From the NCBI GenBank assembly GCA_025922795.1, contig JAICHC010000048.1, forward strand, positions 1 to 10,234: a DNA stretch of 10,234 nucleotides, in the 5' to 3' direction. Shown here one piece after another: positions 1-2,203 of this stretch. Each line of letters begins with the position of its first letter. Position 1 is the first letter of the stretch. Below the pieces are notes generated by a model, which was not told where the DNA came from, did no database searches, and saw only the letters and a program-made list of their open reading frames with translations. The stretch is from Candidatus Binatia bacterium. Its GTDB lineage: Bacteria > Desulfobacterota_B > Binatia > UBA9968. Made by a program: the position numbers and the translations under genes.

Positions 1-606
1 ACGGTGTATCCGACGCGTGTGGCTCACGAGATTTGCGACAGGGCTCATGAAGCCGGATTGAAAGTTCATCTCGACGGAGCGCGGGTTTTCAATGCAGCGG
101 TTTATTTAAATGAAAGCCTCGCCGGGATGACAAAAAAATTCGACTCGGTGCAGTTCTGCTTCAGCAAAGGTCTCGGCGCCCCTGTGGGCTCAATGGTCGT
201 CGGCTCGAAAGATTTGATCGAGCGCTGCCGAGTGATTCGAAAAATGCTCGGCGGGGGTATGCGCCAGGTGGGCGTGCTTGCGGCCGCCGCTCTAGTCGCG
301 CTGGAGGAAGGGCCCAAACGCTTGCACATCGATCACGAGAACGCGCGTTTTTTGGCTCAAGGACTGGCACGGATCCCGGGAATCCGCATCCAACCGGAAA
401 AAGTGCAAACCAACATCGTTATTTTGGACGTCGGCGCCACCGGACGAAGCGCAACGGCGTTTCTAAAGCAGCTCGGTGAGCGCAAAGTGCTTGGCGGAGC
501 GGTCGATGCTCGCCGGGTGCGATTGGTGACTCATTTGGATGTGGATCGGGCTGACATCGAATCGGCGCTGCGGGTTATCGCTGAAGTTGCCGGCAGCGGA
601 TTCTGA
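1..606 (+). CDS. ltaE: Low-specificity L-threonine aldolase, 3' part (5' end outside the window)
   Basis: PLP-dependent enzyme that cleaves L-threonine or L-allo-threonine to glycine and acetaldehyde in the cytoplasm. The frame is open from base 1, and the 201 visible residues are the C-terminal part of a protein usually around 340 residues long. Family landmarks seen in order: the HLDGARVFNA block (the Asp binds the PLP pyridine nitrogen, the Arg is substrate-side), then SKGLGAPVGS, whose Lys (codon 166-168) should form the Schiff base with PLP, then RKMLGGGMRQ, the DHENA helix and the VQTNIV strand. It ends with TGA at 604-606. The start and any promoter lie to the left. It converges on the peroxiredoxin gene across a 111-bp gap in which I see no convincing terminator. 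The family call is secure; exact stereospecificity cannot be read from sequence. Confidence 0.93.
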   Translation, partial: TVYPTRVAHEICDRAHEAGLKVHLDGARVFNAAVYLNESLAGMTKKFDSVQFCFSKGLGAPVGSMVVGSKDLIERCRVIRKMLGGGMRQVGVLAAAALVALEEGPKRLHIDHENARFLAQGLARIPGIRIQPEKVQTNIVILDVGATGRSATAFLKQLGERKVLGGAVDARRVRLVTHLDVDRADIESALRVIAEVAGSGF

Positions 607-717: not shown

Positions 718-1209
718 TTAGGCACCTTGACCCTTTCGCTTTTTTGTACCACGAATCGAGCTCAAAGCGTCGGCGGCGGTGATGCGTCCGATGGGACCGG
801 TGGCGAAACAAGCCTGAAGAACCTTACCTTCCGGGTCGACAGTGAAATTGGTCGCGTGGATAATGCCGCGACGCGCTTCCCAGTAGGCGCCGACCTTGTC
901 GGCGTCCTCGGGTACTTTCAGACCATAGCCGATGGAAAACGTCGCGCCAGTCTTTTCAACCATCTCCTGGGCTTTGTCGAGCGGGTCGACGGAAAGGGCA
1001 ACAAGGTTGGTATTTTCCTGCTTGAATTCCTCAATATGCGCTTGGAAGTCGGCGACCTGCCGGACGCAGTAGGGTCACCAGACGCCGCGATAGAAGATGA
1101 TAACGCCATACTCACCCGTGAGATCCGCCGGAATATTCAACCTGCCGCCGGCGGTGGTTGACACGGTGTACTTTGGAAATGGGTCACCGGGCCCTAGTTG
1201 TCGAGACAT
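718..1209 (-). CDS. Selenocysteine-containing peroxiredoxin-like (AhpC/TSA, redoxin) protein with in-frame TGA
   Basis: Thioredoxin-fold redoxin, 163 residues if TGA at 1077-1075 is read as selenocysteine. Residues 1-44 run from MSRQLGPGDPFPKY through the strand YGVIIFYRGVW. Codon 45 is TGA, then PYC (Cys48), VADFQAH, the strand NLVALSVDP, EMVEKTGATFSIGYG and the C-terminal TVDPEGKVLQACF with Cys134, ending in TAA. In this family the YRGxW motif is followed by CPYC or CPFC, so TGA replaces the first redox Cys and gives a U-P-Y-C site. Start ATG at 1209 is chosen because AAAGGAAG (1217-1224) lies 7 nt upstream; the ATG at 1272 lacks such support and adds a non-conserved extension. It follows the amidohydrolase by 76 nt and is probably co-transcribed. 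Expected role: thiol or peroxide reduction in the cytoplasm. Alternatives are a nonsense mutation or a base-call error, but the open frame, the hairpin past the TGA and the exact position favour Sec. Confidence 0.85.
1044..1061 (-). promoter_or_regulatory. Candidate bacterial SECIS hairpin
   Basis: On the coding (minus) strand the RNA folds as GG-(C)-AGGUC, loop GCC, GACUUCC. That is seven pairs, one of them G-U, with one bulged C. The loop starts 21 nt after the TGA and begins with G. The published bacterial SECIS model asks for an apical loop roughly 16-37 nt past the UGA, a loop of 3-14 nt with a G in its first two positions, and a stem of at least 4 bp; this hairpin meets all of these. 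A competing fold uses GGUGAC with GUCGCC (both spanning 1079-1051) plus an inner CUGC/GCAG stem. I folded by eye only. Confidence 0.6.
1075..1077 (-). other. In-frame TGA, predicted selenocysteine codon (Sec45)
   Basis: This TGA sits between the Trp codon of YRGVW and the Pro codon of PYC. It is the only stop between the ATG at 1209 and the TAA at 720-718. Because other genes here use TGA as their real stop, general reassignment of TGA to Trp or Gly is unlikely. Sec insertion needs SelA, SelB, SelC and SelD elsewhere in the genome; none is in this window. Confidence 0.78.
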
Positions 1210-1216
1210 CGGTTTG

Positions 1217-1224
1217 CTTCCTTT
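1217..1224 (-). promoter_or_regulatory. Ribosome binding site that fixes the peroxiredoxin start
   Basis: AAAGGAAG on the minus strand, 7 nt before the ATG at 1209. It decides between this start and the upstream in-frame ATG at 1272. Confidence 0.7.
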
Positions 1225-1285: not shown

Positions 1286-2203
1286 TCATCCGGCCAAACC
1301 GAGTAGCTTGGCCGCGTTGCCGCCGAAGATTTTCTGCTTATCGTCTTCAGAAATATTCAGTTGTTTGACGGTTTCCACGGCGCGCGCGAGCGGCAGCGGC
1401 ACCGGCGGAGAGTCGCTGCCGAAAACGACATGATCGACGCCGACGGTATCGATGGCGCATTGCACCGCCGGCGGATGATAGCAGACGGTGTCGAAATAGA
1501 GCTGCTTCATGTAGCTCGCCGGCGGCCGCGTCATCACGTCCGGCTCCCACGGGCCGAAGCTCATGTCTTTTCTAAGCTCATACCCGAAGCCATATCGCCC
1601 GGGCAGCATGGGCAGGGCGCCGCCGACGTGGGCGCAGATCATTTTGAGTTTTGGAAATTTCTCGAAGCCGCCGCTGAAGATGAAGCGAGTCAAAGCGAGC
1701 GTGGTATCGAACGGCCGGCCGAGCATTTCCGGCAGGCGGAAGATTTCCATCTTCTCGTTGCCGATGGTGAACTTGGGCGGGTGAATGAAGAGCGGCACAT
1801 CGAGCTCGCTGACTAACTCGAAGAACGGCGTCGCGCGCGGCGAGTCGAGATACTCGCCGTCGGTGCTCGAACCGATCATGATGCCCTTGAGCTTGTATTC
1901 GCGAATCGCCCTTTCGGTTTCCTGGAGAATCTGGTCGTTATCATAGGGAACCGAGCAGGCCAGACCGAGCAAGCGCTTCGGATGCTTGGCGGTCAGCTCG
2001 GCCGCGTGGGCGTTGAACTCCTGAACGACTCTCAAAGGATCATAGCCGTCCGGCGAACGAATCCAGTTGTTGCCGAAGACCGTGATATCAACACCGGCCT
2101 TGTCCTGTTCGTCGAACAGACCGGGCAGATCGAAGATCGACTTCGGCGACTTCGGATGACGCCAGCTTTGCGGGACTAGATGAGCGTGACAGTCGATGAT
2201 CAT
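1286..2203 (-). CDS. Amidohydrolase family 2 (ACMSD-like) metal-dependent hydrolase or decarboxylase
   Basis: TIM-barrel amidohydrolase of the ACMSD / amidohydrolase-2 type, 305 residues, a usual length. Metal-binding landmarks: HxH near the N-terminus (DCHAH, His6 and His8), His141 in PLFIHPP, His192 in ICAHVGG, and Asp264 in VVFGSDSPP. The family includes decarboxylases such as ACMSD and gamma-resorcylate decarboxylase, and hydrolases; these motifs do not settle the reaction or substrate. The protein has no signal peptide and should be cytoplasmic. Start ATG at 2203 is supported by AGAGGT (2210-2215). It is the first gene of a probable two-gene unit with the selenocysteine peroxiredoxin, and a promoter lies just upstream. 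An aromatic or heterocyclic carboxylate is a reasonable guess for the substrate but only a guess. Confidence 0.88.
   Translation of the reverse strand: MIIDCHAHLVPQSWRHPKSPKSIFDLPGLFDEQDKAGVDITVFGNNWIRSPDGYDPLRVVQEFNAHAAELTAKHPKRLLGLACSVPYDNDQILQETERAIREYKLKGIMIGSSTDGEYLDSPRATPFFELVSELDVPLFIHPPKFTIGNEKMEIFRLPEMLGRPFDTTLALTRFIFSGGFEKFPKLKMICAHVGGALPMLPGRYGFGYELRKDMSFGPWEPDVMTRPPASYMKQLYFDTVCYHPPAVQCAIDTVGVDHVVFGSDSPPVPLPLARAVETVKQLNISEDDKQKIFGGNAAKLLGLAG

Follow-up and report, generated by a model that had tools for sequence, protein, structure and literature searches.

Does the in-frame TGA that breaks a minus-strand reading frame in a Candidatus Binatia contig mark a damaged gene, a boundary between two genes, or a codon for selenocysteine (Sec)? 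In the window (the whole 10,234-nucleotide stretch of DNA that was analysed), retranslation returned exactly the frame described in an earlier, sequence-only reading, running from ATG 1209 to TAA 720-718 (163 codons plus stop) with a single internal stop, a TGA at 1077-1075, which falls at residue 45 in the context IIFYRGVW-U-PYCVRQVADF. The same frame is also open upstream as far as TTG 1272, and the start at ATG 1209 agrees with the starts in relatives. The elements of the gene are as follows.

718..1209, minus strand: predicted selenoprotein gene, 163 codons plus TAA, with a peroxiredoxin (Prx)-like product carrying Sec45 and Cys48 (from the frame, the Pfam match and TGA in relatives)
1075..1077, minus strand: UGA codon 45, probably read as Sec (from the frame and the comparison of this column among relatives)
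1066..1068, minus strand: TGC codon of Cys48, the second residue of the UxxC motif, at the column of the Prx peroxidatic Cys (from alignments)
1217..1224, minus strand: possible ribosome-binding site AAAGGAAG, Shine-Dalgarno-like, before ATG 1209 (by eye)

The Pfam AhpC-TSA model scores 71.3 bits on the joined protein, against a cut-off of 26; the match spans the TGA, extending from residue 7 to residue 131. The same model matches all of 24 chosen family members at E<=0.001. Within the window itself ARAGORN finds no tRNA and no Rfam family reaches its gathering score. We put the probability that the gene encodes a selenoprotein with Sec at residue 45 at about 95%; the proposal of a 163-residue Prx-like protein with Sec45 and Cys48, made beforehand from the letters of this stretch, is supported by the UGA/Cys column in relatives, a covarying hairpin, protein-level selection past the UGA and the Sec machinery of related genomes.

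Nineteen related loci were compared, from 18 genomes (L003 and L005 share one genome), and codon 45 is TGA in 16 of them (L001-L005, L008-L017 and L019) and TGT in the remaining three (L006, L007 and L018), all from Ktedonobacterales. The nearest relative, G001, has a copy 81% identical to that of the window, and the copy in G002 is 77% identical; throughout the class to which G001 belongs there are 24 matches, found in 22 of 148 genomes, and every one of the 24 has TGA at this column. The break in the frame is therefore more than chance. A pseudogene or sequencing error, in which the TGA would be a Cys codon altered in this contig and no other, has in its favour that the window is a single contig and that a lone stop within an open frame is the expected product of an error, but the recurrence of the identical TGA in these relatives makes this account very improbable. 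The comparison with L001 also speaks against it: over the 113 codons past the UGA, the two sequences differ at 12, 7 and 60 sites in the first, second and third codon positions, respectively; of the codon changes, 45 are synonymous and 18 non-synonymous. Decay of the downstream half in close relatives had been raised beforehand as a possible refutation of Sec; as judged from the aligned codons, the half downstream of the UGA is evolving as protein. One second copy, L071 in genome G126, looks decayed in its own right, with two TGA and one TAA codons in the matched stretch.

Protein databases give a different picture of the family at first sight. A protein search returned 428 homologues, of which the best 120 were listed, and 119 of those 120 are 94-134 residues long and start at (P0004) or past column 45; these entries are without their front part because the relatives' DNA has TGA at codon 45. 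The expectation that gene callers truncate such genes is thus borne out among the homologues listed. Taken at face value, as in the annotations, the same entries would favour a reading in which a 44-residue piece is followed by a second protein with a start of its own. Against this, the cut at the UGA falls between a strand (residues 34-39) and a helix (residues 46-57) of one modelled fold, and in the 16 UGA loci the second half directly follows the first without a change of frame. A profile search, which returned 1580 proteins, 120 of them listed, points the same way: among the 88 full-length proteins listed (those of at least 140 residues), column 45 is Cys in 86, each a single Cys-containing chain, and Trp in two (P0002 and P0242). 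Two separate products are accordingly very unlikely, and the homologue search that the sequence-only reading had called for has yielded what a Sec codon at position 45 leads one to look for, Cys in the full-length proteins alongside TGA or TGT in the related loci.

The two Trp residues bear on another alternative, that the organism decodes UGA as Trp (for example under translation table 4). P0002, the only one of the 120 homologues listed from the protein search that spans column 45, has Trp there, and so has P0242 in the profile set; this is what a Trp code would produce. The window's beta-eliminating lyase, amidohydrolase and UbiD genes, however, all terminate in TGA, so TGA is also an ordinary stop here, and among 50 distinct DNA stretches compared, codon 45 is restricted to TGA, TGC or TGT in all 50. 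P0002 and P0242 are both JGI proteins, and P0002 also has Trp where its relative L005 has its stop, a TAA, so that the Trp of P0002 would possibly fit a gene call made with the wrong code, in which UGA was translated as Trp. A Trp code is the least probable of the alternatives weighed here, and Sec remains the preferred reading of codon 45.

The distribution of the family extends beyond the class of the nearest relative, with carriers that include Binatia-like, Acidimicrobiia, Sporomusaceae and Chloroflexota genomes. In a wider search (query P0001, E<=1e-15) of genome sets that are samples drawn from larger groups, 2 of 296 genomes from the class of G008 have a match, one with TGA and one with TGC, and 13 of 301 genomes from the phylum of G005 have 14 matches, 11 with TGA and three with no stop. 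Distant relatives from the latter phylum (L079-L089, about 28-31% identity) have USHC replacing UPYC. Matches were also found in 68 plasmid records, none above 60% identity; 15 were listed, and both records opened have TGC. A tree built from 70 sequences, 34 with Sec and 36 with Cys, indicates that the Sec/Cys state switches at least three times, with one Cys form (P0245) nested within the Sec clade of the window, although several terminal branches are long and the deep order is unsure. The tree omits L065, which contains runs of N, and L071, which has additional stops, and its Cys set comprises approximately every third database homologue plus five chosen sequences.

In addition to the codon itself, a SECIS-like element is found directly 3' of the UGA, recognised by the comparison of relatives:

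1050..1062, minus strand: SECIS-like hairpin, stem 1062-1059/1053-1050 (CGGC/GCCG), loop 1058-1054 (AGGUC)

Numbered from the U of the UGA, bases 16-19 pair with bases 25-28, and the loop starts AG[G/U]U. RNAalifold, applied to an alignment of 33 UGA stretches from which exact duplicates had been removed, gives the same 4-bp stem, with compensatory changes in two pairs: pair 17-27 is A-U in 17 sequences, G-C in 11 and broken in five, and pair 18-26 is G-C in 20, A-U in eight, G-U in two and broken in three. When pair 15-29 is counted with the hairpin, 89.1% of cells are paired versus 82.1% in shuffles, and the covariation score is 0.284, whereas shuffles average 0.150, with none of 500 as high, and sliding the hairpin along the alignment gives at most 0.207. 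In the window itself pair 15-29 is mismatched (C-A), so that its stem has 4 bp. Two of five covariation measures do not rise above the shuffles, namely double-change pairs (as high in 380 of 500 shuffles) and further pair types (in all 500), and independent compensatory events are few because the changes follow clades.

The contrast between UGA and Cys forms is illustrated by a tally in which identical 57-base stretches were counted once, leaving 42 UGA and eight Cys sequences. All four pairs are kept in 37 of the 42 UGA sequences and in none of the Cys forms; of the five exceptions, four (L010 and L067-L069) have a stem closing a 4-base loop, AGUU, and the fifth, L066, differs from these. If the stem rule is relaxed to allow this, all 42 UGA forms reach 4 bp, but so do four of the eight Cys forms. 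The AG[G/U]U loop start is found in 41 of the 42 UGA forms versus none of the eight Cys forms. Codon choice at this site is similarly particular: in 36 coding sequences the residue above the loop is Leu in 31 and Val in five; 30 of the 31 Leu codons are TTG or TTA, two codons that make up 14.7% of the Leu codons elsewhere in these sequences. Gln51 is encoded by CAG in 36 of 36 (elsewhere, CAG makes up 174 of 271). The USHC relatives L079-L089 have a hairpin at the same position as the UPYC forms in eight of eight distinct sequences. Single-sequence folding of the UGA region of the window (58 bases) gives a z-score of -0.65 and a minimum-energy fold other than this hairpin, with z-scores over ten sequences from -2.20 to +0.56. 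It is therefore the comparison of relatives, not the folding energy of one sequence, by which the SECIS-type stem-loop is recognised, and its binding by SelB is putative.

The genomes behind the 19 loci mostly possess the machinery for decoding Sec. A selB gene scores over cut-off in 16 of the 18 (the exceptions being G001 and G004), and a tRNA-Sec is present in 16 of 18, all above 60 bits (exceptions G001 and G003); the Ktedonobacterales genomes with the Cys form are among those having both. In the four genomes where selA and selD were sought, selA is over cut-off in G002 and G003 and below it in G001 and G004, and selD passes in G001 (partial, at a contig end), G002 and G003, though not in G004. 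In G002, selA, selB and selD lie side by side, and a tRNA-Sec is also present. The metagenome-assembled genome (MAG) of the nearest relative, G001, has no selB, selA or tRNA-Sec over cut-off, only the selD cut by the contig end, and G004 has only tRNA-Sec of the four components; these absences in the two MAGs are weak evidence against the Sec reading. Across the 22 carriers in the class, selB is found in 18, tRNA-Sec in 17 and at least one of the two in 21, neither being present in G001. There is no enrichment among carriers, because the background of the class is already 119 (selB) and 107 (tRNA-Sec) of 148 genomes, and co-occurrence within the class thus says nothing either way. The sequence-only reading also had the host of the window decode Sec, which for this organism is a prediction. 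The selD matches of G003 (L040) and G002 (L041) hold an in-frame TGA themselves, and selenophosphate synthetase is therefore probably a selenoprotein there too.

The genes on either side of the selenoprotein gene are as follows.

1286..2203, minus strand: amidohydrolase (Amidohydro_2, by Pfam), upstream on the same strand across a 76-base gap, with a TGA stop
1..606, plus strand: beta-eliminating lyase (by Pfam), convergent, cut by the left end of the window, with a TGA stop

This order, with the amidohydrolase upstream, recurs in L001, L002 and L004; the lyase also adjoins the selenoprotein gene in L001, L003 and L004. Among the 120 of 963 amidohydrolase homologues listed, the close ones with a named source come from Deltaproteobacteria (88%), Candidatus Binatia (85% and 84%), Candidatus Acidoferrales (85%) and a Zixibacteria MAG (84%), which suggests a Binatia-like host. 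A possible frameshift is seen at L004:7689-8415, where an adenine-deaminase-like gene matches as two segments in different frames and no further than residue 254.

The structure model of the joined protein (pLDDT 92.1, pTM 0.88) has its best PDB matches in AhpC2 and Bcp4 (both within TMq 0.83-0.85) and in other peroxiredoxins, with ResA lower down; a viral structure library gave five matches at E<=0.001, the best with a TMq of 0.69. Canonical peroxiredoxins act through a Pro, a Thr and the peroxidatic Cys of a PxxxTxxC motif, together with a catalytic Arg. In a profile alignment to 6q5v, Arg41 falls on the Prx Pro, column 45 on the Thr, Cys48 on the peroxidatic Cys and column 119 on the Arg, whereas in a profile alignment to 3c71, a ResA variant, WUPYC aligns with WCPHC, columns 45 and 48 falling on both Cys residues of the CPHC motif. 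Counts from the alignment of the 24 chosen sequences give Tyr40, Arg41, Trp44, U/C45, Cys48, Gln51, Phe122 and Arg142 as invariant, and column 119 as Ala in 15 (including the window, Ala119) and Pro in nine. The canonical PxxxTxxC motif and catalytic Arg are consequently absent in 24 of 24 members. The structure model, the two alignments and these column residues together indicate that a UxxC site of thioredoxin type is set in a Prx fold. The label 'peroxiredoxin-like' in the sequence-only reading thus holds for the AhpC/TSA fold and not for the active site, where Arg41, Sec45 and Ala119 stand at the Pro, Thr and Arg columns.

The product is very probably a Prx-like selenoprotein of the UxxC type, with a thioredoxin fold and a redox function. 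In the mechanism we envisage, SelB with Sec-tRNA-Sec would bind the hairpin that starts 12 bases past the UGA, and the ribosome would place Sec at position 45 and continue to the TAA at 720-718. By analogy with related enzymes, the Sec45 selenolate may then attack a disulfide or peroxide substrate, Cys48 would resolve the Sec45 adduct to an internal selenenylsulfide, and a thioredoxin-like donor would reduce the latter. The chemistry would be thiol:disulfide exchange or thioredoxin-linked peroxide reduction, neither being preferred over the other, and we give this assignment about an even chance of being right. On a Deinococcus aetherius plasmid (L072:488-2924), a Cys homologue lies between an FAD-dependent oxidoreductase gene and genes for YkgB and trxA; the nearby trxA is a hint that may point to a thioredoxin partner.

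Compared with known families, the window protein most resembles the catalogued Prx-like UxxC selenoproteins. As far as the accessible parts of these sources describe them, 22 Prx-like sequences, 21 with UXXC, were among the families already known in 2005 (PMC1088965), 225 'Prx-like 1' sequences have been assigned to pfam00578 with UxxC (PMC2398784), and a 'Prx-like thiol:disulfide oxidoreductase' (PF00578, UxxC/UxxU) is listed as a predicted family (PMC13188914, Table 1). According to the same parts, the catalogued proteins share with the window protein the Pfam domain, the UxxC motif, a single Sec, Cys homologues and a hairpin just past the UGA, and since the window protein fits this description it belongs to an already known kind. 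The RGxWUPYC clade and the catalogued sets are compared here by description only, so that its membership in those sets may go either way.

Other families are more distant. Canonical peroxiredoxins share the AhpC/TSA fold and the column of Cys48, but differ at the Pro and Arg columns, which hold Arg41 and Ala or Pro in 24 of 24 members. Relative to Sec-peroxiredoxin (PrxU, TxxU), Sec45 lies three residues earlier, at the Thr column; the PrxU model NF040737 is absent from the matches of the window protein and matches 14 of 24 members weakly. ResA/TlpA proteins share the aligned motif; the window protein is by eye without a signal or anchor at its N-terminus, and the NCBIfam ResA model gives 32.5 bits against a cut-off of 170. 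SelL has the motif UxxU. The window protein differs from it in having one Sec, and its similarity to SelL-related proteins (NF040769) is weak, at 22.3 bits against a cut-off of 120, with 23 of 24 members similar at E<=0.001. The window protein scores below the cut-off of every NCBIfam model. A published description of an RGxWUPYC clade, including selenoproteins of Binatota/Binatia, was not found in the literature searched, which excluded most subscription papers and all of bioRxiv.

We advance as a tentative proposal, at somewhat below even odds, that these proteins form an uncatalogued, mainly Sec-using Prx-like clade (RGxWUPYC, invariant Arg41, no catalytic Arg) whose carriers are Binatia-like bacteria, that Acidimicrobiia and Chloroflexota hold Sec branches of their own, and that the closest members adjoin an amidohydrolase gene. 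On this proposal the clade would be a distinct selenoenzyme that reduces disulfides or peroxides and that truncation in databases has concealed. The class of chemistry to which the window protein belongs is already known; correct calling of these genes would restore the active site to truncated database entries and would add a further set of uncultured bacteria to the probable users of selenium.
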